Positions 19,511 through 54,211 of a DNA stretch of 64,000 nucleotides are shown one piece after another; position 1 is the stretch's first letter; every line of letters begins with the position of its first letter. The position numbers were made by a program, and so were the translations under genes. This DNA is from a bacterium (GTDB taxonomy: Bacteria; Armatimonadota; Zipacnadia; Zipacnadales; Zipacnadaceae). The notes beneath the pieces are model-generated. The model saw only the letters and a program-made list of their open reading frames with translations, was not told where the DNA came from and did no database searches. The stretch is from assembly GCA_030603495.1 (NCBI GenBank), contig JAUVXR010000003.1:1-64000 (forward strand). The letters are read 5' to 3'.

Positions 19511-20530
19511 ATGCAGCCAAGACTAGGCGTATTTGTACTGGCGACCTTTGCCCTGTTGGTCGCCAGTAGCCCCGCTTTTGCCCCACCTCCCCCACCCGGA
19601 GCAACGCTTAGTGCCTACGCCGCACCTCACTTGTTCGCCTTACCTGGCGCTACTACTACGCGCTTGTTCGGTATGGGTGGATTTGTGACCTGTGTGAAGG
19701 ACGCCGGCTTCGCTAACCCCGCCTATGCTGGCACGCTGGCAACCCACTATGGCGTTGGTCGCCATTCGCTTACAGATTTCGGCGGCGGGCTGGACCTTGA
19801 GGGTATGCAGTTGTCGTTAGCTTGGCCGCTACGCCCCGATGAGACTGGCCTTCAGGTCACCTACTTCGATCTGGATAGTAAGCGCGGTTCGATCAATTTC
19901 GGCGGACAGTCTCTGCTAGCGACATTCAAAGAGCAGGATGTGGCCCTACATTACGGCCATCGGCTCAGTGAGATGTGGATAGTGGGCCTGGGTGTGGGGC
20001 CGAAGATGGACACCGAAAGCGACATTTACAATCCGCTGCCTTTGGTCCCCTTGCTTCATCTAGAGAGCAAGGCCGACATTGGCTTCCGCCTGGGCACTTT
20101 GTATCAGATGGCCGAAACCGGCTGGGTCGGCTTCGTTTACGACCGCTACGATGAGGACGTAAGCGGCTCCGGCTCGCTGTTGGGTGGTTCAGCATCTGGC
20201 TCGTTCAAATCCGAGGAGATCGCCCTCGGTGTATCTCGGCAGGTGTCGGATAAGGTGCTAGCCGCCATTGAATGGCAACAGATGACTACCGAGGGCATGG
20301 GGCAGAAGATCGGTGAGTCCGGGTTCCGCTTCGGCGCCGAAGTCCAGATGGCTGAAGACTGGACATTGCGGGGCGGCTGGAACGACGGTGCCTTGTCGCT
20401 CGGTGCCGGTTGGGTCGGGGAGAAATGGTCGTTACAGTACGCATATGTCAACGACTGGAACGACGATGCGATAGGCGCCAGCCTGGGCGGATCCAACACG
20501 CACCAGCTTGGCCTCAGATGTCAGTGGTAG
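19511..20530 (+). CDS. secreted beta-barrel (outer-membrane-like) protein
   Basis: Protein of 339 residues with a clear signal peptide of 24 residues ending SSPAFA, followed by a proline run. The mature part is rich in alternating Gly/aromatic beta strands (e.g. 'LQVTYFDLDSKRG', 'WSLQYAYVNDWND') and ends 'HQLGLRCQW', with the aromatic C-terminus usual in outer-membrane barrels. It may be an OmpP1/FadL-like or general porin-like barrel; the exact family is not recognised. AAAGGAGG precedes the ATG. It supports an outer membrane in this organism. Confidence 0.65.
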   Translation: MQPRLGVFVLATFALLVASSPAFAPPPPPGATLSAYAAPHLFALPGATTTRLFGMGGFVTCVKDAGFANPAYAGTLATHYGVGRHSLTDFGGGLDLEGMQLSLAWPLRPDETGLQVTYFDLDSKRGSINFGGQSLLATFKEQDVALHYGHRLSEMWIVGLGVGPKMDTESDIYNPLPLVPLLHLESKADIGFRLGTLYQMAETGWVGFVYDRYDEDVSGSGSLLGGSASGSFKSEEIALGVSRQVSDKVLAAIEWQQMTTEGMGQKIGESGFRFGAEVQMAEDWTLRGGWNDGALSLGAGWVGEKWSLQYAYVNDWNDDAIGASLGGSNTHQLGLRCQW

Positions 20531-20609
20531 TTAATGGTTACAGCCCGTTCGTCTGCTTGCGACGACGGGACACCAGTCTGTTTTCACTCACTTGAGAGGC
20601 GAGTGCGAT

Positions 20610-21881
20610 ATGGCTTGGTTACCCGACAACCCTCGTCGGAGGGTTGTTATTACGGGGCTGGGTGTTGTCGCTCCGAATGGCATCGGTAAGGACTCCTGGT
20701 GGCAGGCCATTGTCGAGGGCCGGTCTGGTATAGACTGGATAACCTCCTTCGACACTTCGGGTCTGTACTGCCGCATAGCTGGCCAGGTCAAGGATTTCGT
20801 TGCTGAGGATTTTATGAGCAAGCGCAGCGCGCGGATGGCCGGCCGTTTTGCGCACTTTGCGGTGGCCGCCAGTCGCTTGGCTACAGAGGATGCTGGTCTG
20901 GAACTGAACGGAATTGATCCGTTCCGGACGGGGGCAGCTTTCGGGACCAGCCTGGCCGGGGTAGGTAACATTTCCGATGATATGTACCATCGGTTCGAAA
21001 CCGAGGGGGCCGACGGATTGGTGCCCTCGATGGCCACGGAGATGGCAGCGCATGCGGCCACCAGTCGTGTCTTCATTGAGCTGGGTCTGAAGGGGCCTAA
21101 CGCCACCTCGGGGACTGGCTGCGTGGCCAGCCTTGACTCGATTGCCGTTGGCTGCGACGCGCTGCGTTCGGGCCAAGCGGAGGTGATGATCGCCGGCGGC
21201 ACGGAGGCATGTATCAGCAAGGGAGTTATGACGCTGTTGTGCAAACAAAGGGTCTTGACTCACCACAACAGCCATCCGGCGCAGGCCTCGCGCCCCTTCG
21301 ACTATACGCGCGACGGACTGGTACTCAGTGAAGGGAGCGGTGCAGTAGTGCTGGAGACGCTGGAGCATGCCCGGGAGCGCGGCGCGAACATCTATGCTGA
21401 GGTCCGGGGATATGGCTCTACGACGGAGGCCAAGCGCATGATTGCTGCACAGGCATCTGGCGAGGAGCTAGCCCGCGCCTTTGAGGCAGCTCTGCTTTGC
21501 GGCAAGGTCGGACCCGAGCAGATAGACTACATCTGCGCTCATGGTATCGGTACCCGCGAGTACGACATCGCTGATACCAATGCCATCAAGAAGGTATTGG
21601 GCCAGAGGGCCTACAACGTGCCGGTCAGCTCAATAAAGTCCAGTACCGGTCAGGCCTTCGCCGCCGGGGGAGCGTTCCAGGTCGTCAGCGCGTGCATGAC
21701 GCTGGCTACGGGTATGATTCCGCCGACGATAAACTACCGGGTCCCTGATCCGGCCTGCGACCTCGATTACGTCCCCAATCAGGCGCGGCGGGCCCGGGTT
21801 GATATGGTAATGACTAATTCGCACAGTTTCGGGGGCAGCCACGCCGCGTTGATACTGGGTAGATGCACAAACGGAATCTGA
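20610..21881 (+). CDS. beta-ketoacyl-ACP synthase (FabF-like) with His-to-Gln change in the active site
   Basis: Thiolase-fold condensing enzyme of 423 residues. The nucleophile is C171 in SGTGCVASLD and the first catalytic histidine is H311 in ICAHGIGT. The position of the second FabF histidine is Q348 in IKSSTGQAFAAGG. The spacings 171-311-348 (140 and 37) equal E. coli FabF 163-303-340, and the conserved lysine is kept at 343. A Cys-His-Gln site is unusual; KAS III enzymes use Cys-His-Asn. The ATG at 20610 has GAGAGG 10 nt upstream and replaces the track TTG at 20592. It is followed after 22 bases by a kinase gene, so it is probably co-transcribed with signalling genes and not with fatty-acid genes. 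Confidence 0.85.
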   Translation: MAWLPDNPRRRVVITGLGVVAPNGIGKDSWWQAIVEGRSGIDWITSFDTSGLYCRIAGQVKDFVAEDFMSKRSARMAGRFAHFAVAASRLATEDAGLELNGIDPFRTGAAFGTSLAGVGNISDDMYHRFETEGADGLVPSMATEMAAHAATSRVFIELGLKGPNATSGTGCVASLDSIAVGCDALRSGQAEVMIAGGTEACISKGVMTLLCKQRVLTHHNSHPAQASRPFDYTRDGLVLSEGSGAVVLETLEHARERGANIYAEVRGYGSTTEAKRMIAAQASGEELARAFEAALLCGKVGPEQIDYICAHGIGTREYDIADTNAIKKVLGQRAYNVPVSSIKSSTGQAFAAGGAFQVVSACMTLATGMIPPTINYRVPDPACDLDYVPNQARRARVDMVMTNSHSFGGSHAALILGRCTNGI

Positions 21882-21903
21882 TTGCTCGGAGGCAGTAGCC
21901 TAA

Positions 21904-24384
21904 GTGGACCGTGTGGTTCTGCTCATAATATCGGTTCTTCCGTTGGGCCTGGGTCTGGTTGTGTACCGGCGCACGCCTGACCGGGTCTGGAACAAGCTGT
22001 ATGCGGTTCATGCTGTTGCGGTCAGCATCTGGATCTTCGTCAACTATATGATTCAGTCAGCCGATTCGGTGGCAGCCGCCGAGTTCTGGGTCCGATTTGC
22101 CCACATTCCCGCGGCGGTCGTAATCTCCATGTGCATTGACTTTGCCTGGGCTTTCCCCGAGCGCATTGATTTCGCTCCCCGGCCGCGGCGGGTCGTCTTA
22201 TATACTGTCGGACTGCTCTTCTCTATGGTTGGCTTTAGCCCCGATCTGTATTCGAGCATCGAGCTGATCCGGGGCACAGTAATAGTCCACTTCGGTTGGC
22301 CCTATGTAGCCTTCGGTGCTTTCACTGTTTTTGGCTTGGTAGGTGCTGACTTAATTCTGCTGCGCAAGAGGACCGAGCTAACCGGTCTGCAGCGCATGCA
22401 GGTTGACTACGTCCTGCTTGGGTGGCTGGCCACACAGGGCCTCGCAATCCTCACCATGGTCCTCTTGCCGGTGATGTGGAAGAATAGTGACTTCATGAGG
22501 TGGGGTTCCGCCTCGTACGTCTTTGTCATCCTGGCGATGGCCTATGCCGTCGGTGTGGAGCGCATCCTCGACTTGCGTGTGGTGGCCCGGCGGAGCTTTG
22601 CCTATCTGCTGGTTGCAGCGATGGGGGCCTGGGTCGTCTTGTTCCTGCTGGCGCTAGCCAATCGGCTTCTGGGGATCGAGGTGCCGATGGACTTTGCCCT
22701 GCTGTGCTTGGTGACCGGAATAGGGGTGGGCATTCTGGTCGTGCCCCTGCACCGTTCAGCCAGCACGGCAATGGAACGGACCTTCTCCAGCGAAGAGCAC
22801 CTGCAGCTTCTTTACGACAGGAACTGTGCGGCGATTCTGCGGACTCTAGACACCGATGGGTTGCTGGAGCTTTCCGCCGATTCGATATTCGATATGCTGC
22901 GCTCCACCAGTGTGAGTGTCTTCGTGCGTGCGGAAGCCACGGGTAACTATGTATATAGAGCCGGCCGGTTGGCCGAGGGGCAGCAAAGCGCACCCGATGA
23001 CGGCCCCACGCTCTCGAAGGATCACATTGTGGTTCAGGGCGTAGCTGAGACACCGGATATAGTTATTCGCGACGACGTATTCCGCTTTCGCTCCTTGCAG
23101 CAAGCGAAGCCGCTGGCTGAAGCTATGTCCAGTTTGGATTGCGAGATGATCGCCCCTCTGAGATGGGAAGATGAGCTGGTCGGTTTTATCTGCATCGGCC
23201 CCAAGCTGTCTGGAGAGATGTACCAGCCGGAAGAGATCAAGCTCTTGCACAGCATGATGCCCTTGATATCCCTCGCTTTGCGGAATGCCAACCTGTACGC
23301 GGAGATGGTCGGTATGAAAGAGTACAGTGAGGCTATCCTGCGAGAGATGGAGAGCGGCGTGATCGTAGTTGACGCCGATGAGCGTATCTTCCTGTACAAC
23401 TCAGCGGCAGAGCGGATCATTGGCCTGAAGCGCCTCGAAGTACTCGGCAAAGGGTTGGAGATATTGCCACCAGGTATTGCCCAGTGCCTGCGGCAAGCGG
23501 TCGAGCACGGCGAAGTCCGCACCGGAGATAGGCTCGCGCTGCGCCGCTCGGGGCAGGAGCCTGTCTCGGTGGCCTGTAGCACTTCAGCCCTGACCAGCGC
23601 ACCGGGGCAAGGCGGCGGAGCCGTGGCGGTGATCAATGATCTCACGGTAATTGAGCAGCTAGAACATGAGCGTCAGGAGGCCGAACGGCTGGGGCTTATA
23701 CGCGTTCTCACCGCCGGTATGGCGCATGAAATTCGCAATCCACTGGTGGCGATCCGTACGTTTGCCGAGCTGCTGCCGACCCGGTTGGATGACGAGGAGT
23801 TCTGCTCCACGTTCCAGGCCACTGCTACCGAGGAGATCGAGCGGATTGATCAACTGGTTGGACAACTCCTGATGCTCTCTAAGCCGGCGAGCGCCGTCGC
23901 CGAAGCGATTGATGTCAACAATGTCTGCCAGGCGGTGGTGCGTTCGGCCTCGGCTCAGGCAGAGTCACGGCAAGTGACACTAAGCGCGCAACCGGGGGAC
24001 ATCTCGCAGCAGCCAACTGGCGACGAAGGGCGTCTGCACCAGGCGGTCGTCAATCTGGTCAACAATGCCCTCGAGGCCGAGCCGCAGGGCGGTCGCGTCG
24101 AAGTAATCACCGAGGAAGTCCCAGATGTGGGTGGTAATGGCCGGGTTCTGATCCGGATTTACAATTCTAGCAGTCACATTCCTTCGGAAAAAGTTGACGA
24201 AATCTTCAAACCGTTCTATACTGAGAAGGCGCAGGGCACCGGATTGGGGCTGGCTATATGCCAGACCATTATCGAGGAGCACGGCGGGACGATATCGGTC
24301 CGGTCTGAACCGGGTCAGGGGACGGAGTTCATTGTCGAACTGCCCGTACAGACCAGTGGCCGGTTGGTCAAGGTAAAAGCGTGA
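21904..24384 (+). CDS. membrane histidine kinase (multi-TM, GAF, PAS, HisKA, HATPase)
   Basis: Sensor kinase of 826 residues. About nine N-terminal membrane helices (1-285, 7TM-kinase-like) are followed by a GAF-like domain (about 300-465), a PAS domain (about 475-585), a HisKA domain with the phospho-acceptor H608 in GMAHEIRNPL, and an HATPase with N box VVNLVNNALEA and lid GTGLGLAICQTI. The usual DxGxG G1 box is degenerate ('IYNSSSHIPSEK'). It starts with GTG at 21904 behind GGAGG. Together with the next two genes it forms a kinase cluster. Confidence 0.88.
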   Translation: MDRVVLLIISVLPLGLGLVVYRRTPDRVWNKLYAVHAVAVSIWIFVNYMIQSADSVAAAEFWVRFAHIPAAVVISMCIDFAWAFPERIDFAPRPRRVVLYTVGLLFSMVGFSPDLYSSIELIRGTVIVHFGWPYVAFGAFTVFGLVGADLILLRKRTELTGLQRMQVDYVLLGWLATQGLAILTMVLLPVMWKNSDFMRWGSASYVFVILAMAYAVGVERILDLRVVARRSFAYLLVAAMGAWVVLFLLALANRLLGIEVPMDFALLCLVTGIGVGILVVPLHRSASTAMERTFSSEEHLQLLYDRNCAAILRTLDTDGLLELSADSIFDMLRSTSVSVFVRAEATGNYVYRAGRLAEGQQSAPDDGPTLSKDHIVVQGVAETPDIVIRDDVFRFRSLQQAKPLAEAMSSLDCEMIAPLRWEDELVGFICIGPKLSGEMYQPEEIKLLHSMMPLISLALRNANLYAEMVGMKEYSEAILREMESGVIVVDADERIFLYNSAAERIIGLKRLEVLGKGLEILPPGIAQCLRQAVEHGEVRTGDRLALRRSGQEPVSVACSTSALTSAPGQGGGAVAVINDLTVIEQLEHERQEAERLGLIRVLTAGMAHEIRNPLVAIRTFAELLPTRLDDEEFCSTFQATATEEIERIDQLVGQLLMLSKPASAVAEAIDVNNVCQAVVRSASAQAESRQVTLSAQPGDISQQPTGDEGRLHQAVVNLVNNALEAEPQGGRVEVITEEVPDVGGNGRVLIRIYNSSSHIPSEKVDEIFKPFYTEKAQGTGLGLAICQTIIEEHGGTISVRSEPGQGTEFIVELPVQTSGRLVKVKA

Positions 24385-24388
24385 TAAG

Positions 24389-26383
24389 ATGATCGTTGCG
24401 CTGGCTGCTAATCTGAGCCAATACTGGGAAGAACAGGTCCGGGTTTACTTGGCGGATCAGGCGGTAATGCTCAGCCCGGAGGCTGGTGACCTGTCTGAGT
24501 TTGTCCGCGCGGTTCGGGTTTCGCTGATTGTCTTTGGGATGGAAGCGCTGACCGAGCAAGCAGTAGAGCAGCACCGGCAACTCCGACAAGAGGCACCGCG
24601 GGCTGTTTTTGTCTGCCTGGCTCCCCGCCGAGTCATCGAGCAGATTCGCACCGAGAATCTACTTGTCCCCGACTTTTGGTTGCGGCCCGAGGACGGCCCA
24701 GCGGACCTCGCCGAGGTACTGCGGCGGGCAGTTACCCAGGCTGAGCTGGCGGCCAGGGTCGCTCCGGCCCCTGTCGTGGGGCCGAGTCGTTCCCCGTCTA
24801 CTACAATATCCGCGCCGGAAGATTCTGTGCCGGCCAGCAAGGCCTTCGAGCGGCTTATGGCCGGGCTCACCGGCGGACTCAGCGAGCAGCGGCTGCTGAG
24901 CACGTACCTCGATGCTGTCGCCGAGTTTGTGCGCTCTGGTAGCTATTGCCTGCTGTGGTGGGAGGAGGGTGAGGACCGCTATGCAGTCTACCAGGCTCAC
25001 GGGCTGCGTCCTGAGATAGTATCGGACGGGCGGTTGCAGGGAACCGACGCCCTACCCACCTGGTACCGGCGCAACCGCCGGGTCCTGACCCGGGAGGAAC
25101 TGGCGGGATGGTCCGATGTGCAGACCGCCAGCGAACTGGCTCGGGAAATGGAGTTCTTCTCCGGCGACGTAGTTGTGCCTCTGATGGTGCACGGCCAGCT
25201 CGCCGGGCTGTTGATACTTGGTGAGCAGGTGATTGGCAGCCCGTACTCGCCGGCCCAACTGGAGACGCTGTTCTTGCTGTCTAACTATGTGGTGTTGGCT
25301 CTCGAAGAACTCGAACTCACCCAGCAGTTGCGCCGGAGCAAGGCCTATATCGAGCGGATTGTGCTCAATATGAGCACTGGCGTTATCACCATTGGTGTAG
25401 ACCAGCGTATTAGCGTCTGTAATCCGTATGCCGCTGAGGTACTGGGGATCGAGCGGTCCCAGATCGAGGGTGCCGACCTGCGGGCGCTACCCTCGCCTCT
25501 GGGCGACTATCTATACGCCGCGCTGACCGTGCCCGAAGAGGCGATCACCGGCCAGGAAGTCACGATATGGCAGGGCAAGCTGACGTTGCGGGTAAGCACT
25601 TCGGCTCTGGTGGATGACGATGGTACACCGCTCGGCGCCGTGCTGCTGATGGAGGACCTGACCGCTGAAGTAAACCTGGCCAAGGAGCGGCATCGGGGAG
25701 AGCGGCTGAAGATCCTCACTGGCCTCGTCGGCCACCTGGTGCACGAGATCAGAACCCCGCTCACCGCTATCCGCACCTACGCCGAGCTAATGGGTGATGC
25801 TGAGAGCGACGGCGATCTGGCTGAATTCTGGAAGAACACTGTTACCCCCGAGATTCAGAGACTTGACGAGCTGGCCCGTGATCTGGTGCGTGTCGTCCAG
25901 CAGCCGGAACCTGAGTTTGAGGTCGCGCAGATTGACAAGCTGGTGGGCGAGGCCCTGGACAAGCTGCGCGGGACCCGCGACATTCACGAATCGCTCGTCA
26001 AGCTGGGCGTAGGCGAAGCCATCCCGCGTGTGGTCGTGGAGCCCCAGACGATGGTGGACGCCATCTTCTACCTCCTCCGCTACCTATATGGTCCCGGGGG
26101 AATGCCCGTAGATATTGATATCGCTGCCTCGCCGACTGATGACGGCGAGAGTGTCTTGGTAAAGATGTCACGAGCTATCGGCTCGGAGAAGGGACTGTCC
26201 CCTGAAGATCTGTTTGATCCCGTCGCTGCCCTGCAGCGCCAGCAAGCTGACCTCGGGCCGGCTATCAGCCGCAAGATCATCGAAAACCAGCAGGGCCGGG
26301 TCGAGGCCCACTGCGAGGACGACAAACTCGAAATACGGGTCGTCCTGCCGGCGGCCGCAATTCATCGAACTGTGGCACCGTAG
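24389..26383 (+). CDS. GAF/PAS histidine kinase-like protein with degenerate ATPase domain
   Basis: Cytoplasmic protein of 664 residues. The N-terminal region of about 120 residues may be a degenerate receiver-like fold. A GAF domain (about 160-305) and a PAS domain (about 315-420) follow, then a HisKA helix pair with H452 in GHLVHEIRTPL. The C-terminal third aligns in place with HATPase but lacks a recognisable N box (YLLRYLYGPGG where NxxxNA is expected) and the DxGxG and GxGxGL boxes, so it may not bind ATP. It could be a phosphotransfer or scaffold partner of the neighbouring kinases. It starts 4 bases after the previous stop. Confidence 0.8.
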   Translation: MIVALAANLSQYWEEQVRVYLADQAVMLSPEAGDLSEFVRAVRVSLIVFGMEALTEQAVEQHRQLRQEAPRAVFVCLAPRRVIEQIRTENLLVPDFWLRPEDGPADLAEVLRRAVTQAELAARVAPAPVVGPSRSPSTTISAPEDSVPASKAFERLMAGLTGGLSEQRLLSTYLDAVAEFVRSGSYCLLWWEEGEDRYAVYQAHGLRPEIVSDGRLQGTDALPTWYRRNRRVLTREELAGWSDVQTASELAREMEFFSGDVVVPLMVHGQLAGLLILGEQVIGSPYSPAQLETLFLLSNYVVLALEELELTQQLRRSKAYIERIVLNMSTGVITIGVDQRISVCNPYAAEVLGIERSQIEGADLRALPSPLGDYLYAALTVPEEAITGQEVTIWQGKLTLRVSTSALVDDDGTPLGAVLLMEDLTAEVNLAKERHRGERLKILTGLVGHLVHEIRTPLTAIRTYAELMGDAESDGDLAEFWKNTVTPEIQRLDELARDLVRVVQQPEPEFEVAQIDKLVGEALDKLRGTRDIHESLVKLGVGEAIPRVVVEPQTMVDAIFYLLRYLYGPGGMPVDIDIAASPTDDGESVLVKMSRAIGSEKGLSPEDLFDPVAALQRQQADLGPAISRKIIENQQGRVEAHCEDDKLEIRVVLPAAAIHRTVAP

Positions 26384-26395
26384 GAGGTAACGCAG

Positions 26396-28036
26396 ATGGC
26401 TGTCGCTGATATCGTGGTAATTGATGACGAATCGGGACCACGCGATTCCCTGCGGATGATCCTCAAAGATCATCACGAGGTCCGCACTGCTGCCAGCGGG
26501 CCGGAGGGCCTGGAGCAAATTCGTGAGCACGCGCCCGACCTGGTCTTCCTCGACATTAGGATGCCGGGCATGGACGGCGTCGAAGTGATGCGGCACATCA
26601 AGAACCTGGACGCGGACATCGAGGTGGCGATAATCACTGCATATGCTGCAGTCGAGAGTGCCCAGGAAGCGGTGCGCTATGGTGCGCTGGATTATCTGAC
26701 CAAGCCCTTTGGTGTCAAGGACGTAGAAGATGTCGTGGCGCGCGCCCTCCAGCGCCGACAGGAGCGCGTCGAGCAGGAGGCGATGCTGGCGGAGCTTCGG
26801 CAGATTAGTGAAATGTTGTCGGGCAGACTCGGCGAGTTGGCTCAGCAGCCGCCAGACGCCGATCAGACCACACTATCGCAGCAGTTGACCTCGGCCCATA
26901 CCTCCATAGAAGACCAACTAAGCAATGTTGGCCGACTCAGTGCAATTGGCGAAATAGCCGCGGAGGTAGCGCACGACGTCAACAACTTCCTCTCGGCTAT
27001 GCTGCTAAGGATTGAAGTATTGTTGATGAAGACGCAGGATCACGATCAGGTATCGGCTGAGGACATAGTCGAGGCACTGCGCGACATGGAACGGGCCACT
27101 CGGGACAGTGTGCAGACGGTGGAACGCATCGCCAGCTTTGCCAAGTCTGATCCGTTCGAGCCCAACGAGCAGGTGGGGGTAAATGAAATCCTGAGAACTG
27201 CGGCAGGTCTCAGCCTCGGCCGCGCGCGAGGGCACAGTGATCAGCAGATCGTCTGGGAGCTACAAGATGTGCCTGATGTCGTCGGCAATGCCACGGCCCT
27301 CCGCACGGTCTTCGTCAACCTGTTTATCAACGCCTGGCACGCGATGGAGGGTACCGGCGAGATCCGGGTACGCACCCGTTACGATAGCCTCAGCGCAGTA
27401 GTCGTCGAGTTGAGCGATACTGGCTTAGGCATCCCCCCTGAGATTATGGATAGTATTACCCAGCCTTTCTTTACCACCAAGGAAGAAGGCACTGGGCTGG
27501 GCTTAAGCATTGCCAAGAGGGTCATTGAGCGCCACGGCGGCAGTGTACTCCTCGAAAGCGCACTCGGTGCGGGCACCACTGTCACTGTGTCTCTGCCGGT
27601 GGAGGGGCTGGCGCCAGCGCCGGACGATTCACGGGTGGGTCCCGACATCCTGCTGATTGACGATGACGAAGCGGTCATCCACTCACTGCGCAGCTTCTTC
27701 CAGGCCCACGGCTGGGCCGTCAGCGCGGCGACATCTGGGGTGGCTGGACTTGGCCAGTTCGAGGAAAGCTTGAAGACGCACCAGCGCCCCCCCCAGGTCG
27801 TGGTAATTGATCTGCGCATGTCCGACCTGAGTGGGACGGAGCTGGCCCAGCGCATCAAGCAGCTTGCGCCCGACACGCATACCGTACTGCTAAGTGGCTA
27901 CCTGGACGATGAGCCGGAAGCGGTCATCTCTCCGGATTTCGACGCCGTAATGAGCAAGCCCGTCGATCCGGATAAGCTGCTCGCGCACATAGCCAAGGTA
28001 GCGACCCCCGACCGTTCTGTCTCTTCCTTGGCCTGA
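26396..28036 (+). CDS. hybrid REC-HisKA-HATPase-REC histidine kinase
   Basis: Protein of 546 residues. Receiver 1 has phospho-acceptor D53 in LVFLDIRMPG and K in YLTKPFG. A coiled-coil linker leads to a HisKA domain with H193 in VAHDVNNFL and a complete HATPase (NLFINAWHAME, DTGLGIP, GTGLGLSIAKR). A second receiver has the acceptor in VVVIDLRMSD. No DNA-binding or enzymatic output domain exists. The gene starts 12 bases after the previous one with GGAGG upstream. It probably relays signals from the two upstream proteins. Convergent with the radical SAM gene, only 8 bases apart. Confidence 0.9.
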   Translation: MAVADIVVIDDESGPRDSLRMILKDHHEVRTAASGPEGLEQIREHAPDLVFLDIRMPGMDGVEVMRHIKNLDADIEVAIITAYAAVESAQEAVRYGALDYLTKPFGVKDVEDVVARALQRRQERVEQEAMLAELRQISEMLSGRLGELAQQPPDADQTTLSQQLTSAHTSIEDQLSNVGRLSAIGEIAAEVAHDVNNFLSAMLLRIEVLLMKTQDHDQVSAEDIVEALRDMERATRDSVQTVERIASFAKSDPFEPNEQVGVNEILRTAAGLSLGRARGHSDQQIVWELQDVPDVVGNATALRTVFVNLFINAWHAMEGTGEIRVRTRYDSLSAVVVELSDTGLGIPPEIMDSITQPFFTTKEEGTGLGLSIAKRVIERHGGSVLLESALGAGTTVTVSLPVEGLAPAPDDSRVGPDILLIDDDEAVIHSLRSFFQAHGWAVSAATSGVAGLGQFEESLKTHQRPPQVVVIDLRMSDLSGTELAQRIKQLAPDTHTVLLSGYLDDEPEAVISPDFDAVMSKPVDPDKLLAHIAKVATPDRSVSSLA

Positions 28037-28044
28037 CGGCTTGC

Positions 28045-29697
28045 CTATGCGGTGCGGGGGGGCTTGACTATCGTATCGTTGGCCTGGATAACCATCTCGG
28101 CCATCGCCTCACTGTCGCCGGTAAGAGACCAGAGCCGGGCTAGGTCGCGGAACTGGCGCGGCGTTATCTGGGCACAGTTGGCGATCAAGGCCATGTCGTC
28201 AGGCACATTAGTCAACAGTCCCGCCGCTTCGAGCTCGGCTGCGAACTTCGTCGTTAGTGCTGTGAACTCCCCGAAGGCCATGCCGTTGACCTTATAGGGG
28301 AGCGGGTCCCAAAACTGCGGCGGAAATAGCAGTTTTATCTTATAGTCAAGACCCTCTATCAGCGCCTTCTGCTTGTCAACCTCGAAGTTATATCTGTGTG
28401 GTTCCTCTATCCACGACGTCCCGGGTAGCAGGCCAGGGAATTGCACGGGCACCGAATCTGGCTGTAGGTCAATGATGAAGTCACGGCTCTGCTGGATCGT
28501 CTCTGGGGTGTCGAAGGGCAACGGTACAATCATGCTTGTTGCCACAAACACTCCGGCTTCCTGAGCTGCCTGCACCGTCTCCTTCACCTGCACCAGGTCT
28601 AGCCCCTTGCGCACCGCCTTGTCCAGTATCTCCTGGCAGCCTGACTCGATGCCGAAGAAAATGGCGTGTAGGCCGGAGCGAGACATAACGTCGAAGTGCT
28701 GAGGCTCGGCGCTGGCAAAGTGCCCAAAGCAGGCGTACTGGACCTGTAGGCCCCGCTGCAGGATCTCTTGAGCTATCTCATACATCAGGCGGCCTGGTGT
28801 GGATGAGCCCGCGAAGCGAAAGACTGAAATACCGTGCTGATTGACCATCTGCGCCATCCGGTCAACCAACAGCTTCGCTGAGGCGGTGCGCAGGCGGGGG
28901 CCGCTTTCGACCGGATGTGTGCAGAAGCCACACCGGAAAGGACAACCCCGGCTGTCGTCAAGCACGATTATCTTGATCTTTTCCTCACCGGCCATAGCCG
29001 GGTAGATATCGGAGTCGTAGACTGGAATAGGTAGTGTGTTCAAGTCTAGCCATTCGGTACGGGGTACCTCGCGGACCTCTCCGCCCTCGTGGTAGATAAT
29101 CCCAGGAATCTGCGCCAGGCTCTGCTGGCCGACGGCGTGCTGCGCTAGCTCCACAATCGTCGCTTCGGCCTCGCCGACGGCGATCGCCTCAAAGACATCG
29201 GTGCGCTGGTAGATCACGTCTTTGAACCAGGAGGCCTGAGGGCCGCCGGCGTAGATGTGCAGGGCAGGGAACTCCGCCCGCAGCATCTGGGCCAGGACCA
29301 CGCTTCCCGAGAAGCCGTCACCGTTCCATAGTTTGAAACCGACCAAGTCCGGCTGAAACCGGCGGACTTCCTCTGCCAGTTCCTGGCCAATTCGACGCAG
29401 CTCGGCCTCCTGGTGCGCCGCCAGTTGGGCCTGTAACTGCTGGAGTTGCGCTATTTGGTCAGGCTGGGGCGGCCCCCCCCCGCCGCGCAGCAACTCCAGG
29501 GCGATGGGCTTGAGCAGTGCGGATAGCGGCTGGGGAAACAGCCGACGCATCGTCGCGACGGTGCCATAGTCCAGGATCTTCGCTTCGTGCCCGGCCTCCA
29601 GCAGGGCGCCCGCCAGGTTGGCTAGACCGTTGTCAGGGGTGAGGCTGCTAGGCGTGTAAGGGTATCCAGCGTAGCTGACCAATAGGCCGCGGGCCAT
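28045..29697 (-). CDS. B12-binding-domain radical SAM protein
   Basis: Protein of 550 residues. The N-terminal region resembles a cobalamin-binding Rossmann domain ('DNGLANLAGALLEAGHEAKILDYG', 'PDLVGFKLWNGD', 'HIYAGGPQASWF') as in the BchE/P-methylase group. The radical SAM core has the 4Fe-4S motif CPFRCGFC near residue 300. A C-terminal domain of about 110 residues follows. A Pro/Gln-rich insert lies around residues 75-105. The substrate is unknown. AAAGGAGG stands 9 nt before the ATG at 29697, so the track start at 29721 is rejected. Confidence 0.85.
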   Translation of the reverse strand: MARGLLVSYAGYPYTPSSLTPDNGLANLAGALLEAGHEAKILDYGTVATMRRLFPQPLSALLKPIALELLRGGGGPPQPDQIAQLQQLQAQLAAHQEAELRRIGQELAEEVRRFQPDLVGFKLWNGDGFSGSVVLAQMLRAEFPALHIYAGGPQASWFKDVIYQRTDVFEAIAVGEAEATIVELAQHAVGQQSLAQIPGIIYHEGGEVREVPRTEWLDLNTLPIPVYDSDIYPAMAGEEKIKIIVLDDSRGCPFRCGFCTHPVESGPRLRTASAKLLVDRMAQMVNQHGISVFRFAGSSTPGRLMYEIAQEILQRGLQVQYACFGHFASAEPQHFDVMSRSGLHAIFFGIESGCQEILDKAVRKGLDLVQVKETVQAAQEAGVFVATSMIVPLPFDTPETIQQSRDFIIDLQPDSVPVQFPGLLPGTSWIEEPHRYNFEVDKQKALIEGLDYKIKLLFPPQFWDPLPYKVNGMAFGEFTALTTKFAAELEAAGLLTNVPDDMALIANCAQITPRQFRDLARLWSLTGDSEAMAEMVIQANDTIVKPPRTA

Positions 29698-29845
29698 ACT
29701 AAGAGATCCTCCTTTCACCACTAGGTTCGCCGTCCGCTTCCGTCATTCCTTGTGAGTCTGAATTGGGGACTGAGCAGGCAGGAGACACACTGCCCAACGA
29801 AGAATTGCCTGGTGAACGCTAAGCACCAAGAGAGGTGTAGTGCAA

Positions 29846-53828: not shown

Positions 53829-54211
53829 GCAACGAGCGGCAACGCATACTCATCGTAGACGACGAAGACAGCCTGGCACGCTTAATGAAGATGCTCCTGG
53901 AGCACCTGGGCTACTCCGTGGACTGGGCCGCCAACGGCCAGTTGGCCCTGGAGCTGGGGGCCCAGCATAGCTACGCAGCCATAATCTGCGACCTGTTGAT
54001 GCCCTACGTCAACGGCATGGAGCTCTTCGAAATATGGCGGGCTGAATCGCCGGAGTTGGCCGAGCGGGTGATCTTCGTAACCGGAGATAATCTGGGCACA
54101 CGGACTAACCGATTCCTGGGGCTGTGCGGCCAGCCCTGTCTGTACAAGCCCTTCGATATCAAGGAGCTGACGCAGACCCTTGAAGATGTCACCGCGTCCT
54201 ACGCCAGTTGA
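53825..54211 (+). CDS. single-domain response regulator (REC only)
   Basis: CheY-like receiver of 128 residues. Acidic pocket D12/D13/E14 in VDDED, phospho-acceptor D56 in IICDLLMPY, Thr in FVTGDN and Lys in LYKPFD. There is no output domain, so it would act by protein contact or phosphorelay. Partner of the upstream kinase. Convergent with hisD. Confidence 0.93.
   Translation: MSNERQRILIVDDEDSLARLMKMLLEHLGYSVDWAANGQLALELGAQHSYAAIICDLLMPYVNGMELFEIWRAESPELAERVIFVTGDNLGTRTNRFLGLCGQPCLYKPFDIKELTQTLEDVTASYAS

Follow-up and report, generated by a model that had tools for sequence, protein, structure and literature searches.

Six neighbouring genes, encoding a FabF-like ketosynthase (KS), a predicted FadL-type barrel, a radical-SAM enzyme and three kinase-type proteins (HK1, HK2 and the hybrid HYB), are inherited as one block across a bacterial order, as judged from gene order and co-occurrence in related genomes, and together they resemble a hitherto undescribed system for producing a lipid-like molecule and responding to it. 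We tentatively propose, at somewhat less than even confidence, that they form a co-inherited lipid-signalling module in which the product of the KS is sensed by the kinases. The block was analyzed in a 64,000-nucleotide stretch of DNA (hereafter, the window), and its features are listed in Table 1 together with related features from other loci.

Table 1. Position, strand and characteristics of the genes of the block and of related genes discussed in the text. Positions without a locus prefix are those of the window.
Feature	Position	Strand	Characteristics
P0001 barrel	19511-20530	+	FadL-like fold (AlphaFold2 model); directly 5' of KS across the order
KS	20610-21881	+	ATG start; alternative in-frame TTG at 20592
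HK1	21904-24384	+	Pfam: HisKA_7TM, GAF, PAS, HisKA, HATPase
HK2	24389-26383	+	Pfam: GAF, PAS, HisKA; no HATPase match
HYB	26396-28036	+	Pfam: Response_reg x2, weak HisKA, HATPase
B12-binding radical-SAM enzyme	28045-29721	-	Convergent neighbour of HYB; CxxxCxxC motif conserved
f37 receiver-HD-GYP	L129:12652-13863	+	Intact HHExxDGxGYP; receiver matches REC1 of HYB
f37 receiver-HD-GYP	L130:1445-2614	+	Intact HHExxDGxGYP; receiver matches REC1 of HYB
f37 SAM methyltransferase, UbiE-like	L131:7036-7773	-	Between KS and HK1; also adjoins KS in L129
Orphan NtrC-type regulator (G000:C9)	L134:2159-3523	-	Own genome; no adjacent kinase

Composition and conservation of the block

The KS, HK1, HK2 and HYB genes all lie on the plus strand with 22, 4 and 12 bases between them, the same values as in the original prediction. 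Its description of the products, as a ketosynthase followed by a nine-segment membrane kinase with GAF and PAS domains, a GAF/PAS kinase-like protein and a REC-kinase-REC hybrid, agrees with Pfam and hydropathy: the KS matches the ketoacyl-synt N- and C-terminal domains, and 9 membrane segments are predicted in HK1. A single transcript is supported by a 4-base overlap of HK1 with HK2 in most relatives and by the short or negative gaps between HK2 and HYB. Scans for promoters and terminators gave results at chance level only and are uninformative.

Sixty related genomes were searched with HK2, and the DNA around the matches was then read. The order barrel-KS-HK1-HK2-HYB, with a convergent radical-SAM gene outside the operon, recurs in the window's genus, family and order, and the conserved unit is wider than the four genes first noted. 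The original prediction had staked itself on the KS being conserved beside the kinases, in a four-gene order shared among relatives. Indeed, the KS is directly upstream of HK1 in all loci of the order not cut by a contig end, including those in which a simple ORF picker took an antisense frame; its apparent absence from L057, L059, L069 and L072 proved to be an artefact of ORF picking. The adjacency still holds in L163 and L174, where HK2 is hidden by contig ends. In genus g4 (G009), HYB is found ~9 kb away from the KS on the same contig. A contig scan with HYB as the query returned seven matches (23-34% identity), and no KS was near any of them.

Genomes were scored as system-positive if HK2 or an order-type KS was found, and by this measure the system was present in 38 of 61. 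An ortholog of the radical-SAM enzyme occurred in 33 of the 38 system-positive genomes vs. none of the 23 system-negative ones, and the barrel in 34/38 vs. 2/23 (Fisher p = 3e-12 and 2e-10, respectively; these values ignore shared ancestry). Four of the five system genomes without a radical-SAM gene have a completeness of 67-86%. In a distant genome, G046, the radical-SAM gene is likewise close to the system and the barrel was not found; in G060 neither gene was found.

The ketosynthase, the barrel and the radical-SAM enzyme

The KS shares with FabF its fold family, catalytic Cys (Cys171), first His (His311) and Lys (Lys343), but differs from it at several positions. When the KS was read against the Cys-His-His triad and Lys of FabF, the second His was found to be replaced: the position of FabF His340 is occupied by Gln348 in all members from the order, by Gln in family f37 and by Asn in lineage f11. 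The f37 KS also has Arg at the position of the catalytic Lys. The HGTST motif, a pantetheine contact, is changed to HGIGN, HGIGT or similar, and two His residues that are invariant in the KS of the order, His405 and His411, take the positions of FabF F398 and N404, the latter of which pairs with D265 in FabF gating (PMC7138838). In ordinary FabF copies of the phylum, the second His is kept wherever the motif was read. The KS scored 412.5 bits against the NCBIfam equivalog for FabF (TIGR03150), below the cut-off of 493.75, and 395.7 bits against the broader subfamily NF005589, above the cut-off of 387. In a tree with FabF-type outgroups only, the kinase-linked KS of the order, f11 and f37 formed one clade (support 99/99), apart from the FabF of the phylum and of the PDB, with f37 on a long branch. 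One row (fabF_L168) was read in the wrong frame in both trees and sits on a long branch of its own; the KS clade is intact.

The genome from which the window comes has a separate fatty-acid-synthesis locus with an ACP and another FabF, so the KS of the block is probably not needed for housekeeping. At that locus (L133; G000:C26), FabH-like, FabD-like, FabG-like, ACP and FabF genes are intermixed with genes for acyl-CoA dehydrogenase and electron-transfer flavoprotein. The block itself contains no further conserved gene of fatty-acid synthesis, as would be expected of a dedicated signal enzyme.

An AlphaFold2 model of P0001 (pLDDT 87.8) folds like an outer-membrane beta-barrel of the FadL kind, i.e., a channel type for hydrophobic compounds. 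Its best PDB matches by Foldseek were TbuX, CymD, FadL and TodX (E 1e-13 to 1e-11), with a TM-score to FadL-type structures of ~0.6 on the query. Among sequence profiles, Pfam gave no match to P0001 and PorV_fam gave 25.2 bits (cut-off 90), and a profile search of the PDB returned only CymD (E 0.26). The FadL of Sinorhizobium fredii functions in uptake of long-chain AHLs (PMC9938287). In genus g3 (L044:14464-14895, minus strand; L061), a lone CheY-like receiver adjoins the radical-SAM gene and could accept phosphate from the relay; such a receiver is no general feature among the loci examined.

Kinases, receivers and output

Of the three kinase-type proteins counted earlier, HK1 and HYB carry kinase motifs, and HK2 is a pseudokinase. 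In HK1, the H (His608), N, F and G2 boxes are intact, and the Asp of the G1 box is changed to Asn754, a residue that is Asn throughout the order and f11 and Asp in f37. The cytosolic HK2 comprises a receiver-like fold (~2-124), GAF and PAS domains, a DHp with His452 and an ATP-binding domain; in its model, residues 2-124 form the alternating strands and helices of a receiver, and the remainder resembles sensor kinases. The N, G1 and G2 boxes of HK2 are lost in every ortholog that covers the region, f37 included, and by this degenerate ATP site HK2 is, on sequence, a pseudokinase wherever the region could be checked. Neither the receiver-like fold nor the degenerate site figured in the earlier account. 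Most HK2 orthologs retain the His, but those of L065, L066, L072 and L073 do not, which means that HK2 need not accept phosphate everywhere. HYB is laid out as REC1 (Asp53), DHp (His193), HATPase and REC2 (Asp472), and its receiver motifs, His193 and N, G1 and G2 boxes are conserved in nearly all orthologs. The best matches to HK1 outside the system are 7TM-GAF-PAS kinases of the same phylum (G048:C60, G050:C14 and G053:C154), which are similar in length and domains. Unlike HK1, these kinases adjoin an NtrC-type regulator, and locus searches found no KS in G050 and G053 (L074 and L075).

Pfam detected no DNA-binding or enzymatic output domain in KS, HK1, HK2 or HYB, and to this extent the original description of a system without output is correct for the window; it does not extend to family f37, where a receiver-HD-GYP protein comes after HK2. 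The f37 locus, pieced together from L129, L130 and L131, reads KS, SAM methyltransferase, HK1, HK2 and receiver-HD-GYP. Its RpfG-like output is probably c-di-GMP turnover, and the methyltransferase is a possible tailoring enzyme. One f37 genome has an extra GAF-kinase-REC hybrid directly 5' of the KS (L129:4007-6388, plus strand). Lineage f11 encodes the receiver separately, in a gene ~54% identical to REC1 that is followed by further kinases. REC1 is thus the constant receiver, and the downstream part varies by lineage.

Candidates for an output were also sought in the window's own genome, which has 27 receiver matches. A receiver-HD-GYP protein was rejected, as neither of two HD_5 matches coincides with a receiver match. 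The orphan NtrC-type regulator carries a receiver and is the genome's only strong match to a sigma-54 activator; it was discarded as an obligate output since it is undetected at E 1e-80 in many system genomes. The window contains another receiver-domain ORF at 53846-54181 on the plus strand (210 aa open frame).

A candidate signalling system and its alternatives

No description of a KS and kinases in such composition was found among the open-access papers searched, in line with the earlier statement that none was known. RpfF, of the DSF system, has a crotonase fold and belongs to an enzyme family other than the KS. The RpfF-RpfC-RpfG system of Xanthomonas combines a fatty-acid-derived signal (DSF), a sensor kinase and a receiver-HD-GYP regulator (PMC13220807). 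The f37 locus, with its KS, HK1, HK2 and receiver-HD-GYP, is similar, whereas the block of the window has no receiver-HD-GYP and carries the kinase and REC2 of HYB in place of the HD-GYP. PhcBSRQ of Ralstonia has a signal enzyme that adjoins the sensor kinase PhcS and PhcR, a receiver-kinase without a DNA-binding domain (PMC8578825). The window likewise combines a signal-enzyme candidate, a sensor kinase and a receiver-kinase without a DNA-binding domain (HYB, REC-HisKA-HATPase-REC), and in f37 a SAM methyltransferase adjoins the KS. However, PhcB is a methyltransferase while the candidate synthase of the window is a KS, and a PhcB-type SAM methyltransferase is not among the conserved genes of the window block. 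A pseudokinase, a FadL-type barrel and a radical-SAM gene are not among the parts described for PhcBSRQ in that account (PMC8578825). HYB also differs from PhcR in having a second receiver; the likeness is one of layout. The known layout is that of a signal enzyme, a sensor kinase and a regulator that does not bind DNA, with a synthase of another kind here.

In the proposed module, the KS would receive an acyl group from the fatty-acid pathway on Cys171 and give rise to a small acyl-derived molecule, which the B12/radical-SAM enzyme, or in f37 the SAM methyltransferase instead, may tailor and which, being hydrophobic, would pass the outer membrane through the FadL-type barrel. HK1, paired with the pseudokinase HK2, would detect the molecule through membrane, GAF and PAS regions and phosphorylate REC1 of HYB; HYB's own kinase would thereby be switched, and phosphate would travel via REC2 to an output encoded elsewhere. 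The corresponding receiver of f37 would directly drive the HD-GYP c-di-GMP phosphodiesterase. We infer the KS product, its activity and sensing, the flow of phosphate and any quorum role from the composition of the block; the sensing of an acyl product, first suggested from the four genes, fits the evidence as a link, with that product as the kinases' presumed ligand. The methyltransferase and receiver-HD-GYP of f37, the FadL-like fold and the existence of signal-making ketosynthases (PpyS; PMC4578411) favour a signal module, as do the stable gene order, the co-occurrence counts, the single clade of kinase-linked KS with Gln or Asn at His340 and the lack of other conserved fatty-acid-synthesis genes. 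Less in keeping with it are the replacement of His340 itself, the convergent radical-SAM gene outside the operon and the parts missing from G060 and G046. We regard as doubtful a more specific version, i.e., a new signal class in which a hydrophobic autoinducer comes from a Cys-His-Gln KS acting with a B12/radical-SAM enzyme and is served by a FadL-type channel, an active-kinase/pseudokinase reader and a receiver whose downstream module has been swapped in evolution (HD-GYP phosphodiesterase vs. kinase-REC relay).

The main rivals are an envelope-lipid control module and an acylation-sensing KS. In the first, which is unlikely but deserves serious weight, a membrane lipid would be produced or altered by the KS and radical-SAM enzyme and trafficked by the barrel, and the kinases would watch the state of the membrane rather than a secreted signal. 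The membrane-rich HK1, the FadL-like barrel and weak profile matches of the radical-SAM enzyme, which include hopanoid- and ladderane-associated types, agree with such a role, but the block lacks any further conserved gene of lipid biosynthesis, and the coupling of the set to HD-GYP and a methyltransferase in f37 is a layout seen in diffusible-signal systems.

Loss of His340 could mean that condensation has been lost in the KS. It might then be a sensor subunit, acylated on Cys171 without condensation and read by HK2/HK1 as an internal report of fatty-acid flux. We consider this rather improbable, although several features would fit: all members retain the Cys and first His but have another residue in place of His340, HGTST is altered, the receiver-like, GAF and PAS regions of HK2 could bind a partner, and housekeeping synthesis has its own ACP and FabF. 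A conserved FadL-type channel and radical-SAM enzyme would be needless for an internal flux sensor. In addition, the ketosynthase PpyS of the Photorhabdus PpyS-PluR system makes a signal with a Cys-His-Asn triad and is active, so Gln or Asn at His340 is no proof of inactivity (PMC4578411). PpyS differs from the KS in deriving from a FabH-type enzyme, and its receptor is LuxR-like, not a histidine kinase (PMC4578411).

It is very unlikely that external fatty acids or hydrocarbons are sensed and imported, with the KS processing nutrients: in the PDB the barrel is indeed closest to FadL and monoaromatic-hydrocarbon channels, but the block has no conserved gene for beta-oxidation or degradation and a condensing enzyme would be odd for catabolism. 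A chance neighbourhood of KS and kinases with separate functions is extremely unlikely given their adjacency across the order and two other deep lineages and the single clade, with a shared active-site change, that the linked KS form.

If the signalling module is real, it would represent a class of ketosynthase-made, kinase-sensed signals in a deep lineage, a natural condensing enzyme with its second catalytic His replaced, and a single receiver whose output modules have been exchanged. Were no signal involved, a KS clade with a diagnostic substitution would still be tied to a phosphorelay, and mutants of its genes would be predicted to share phenotypes.
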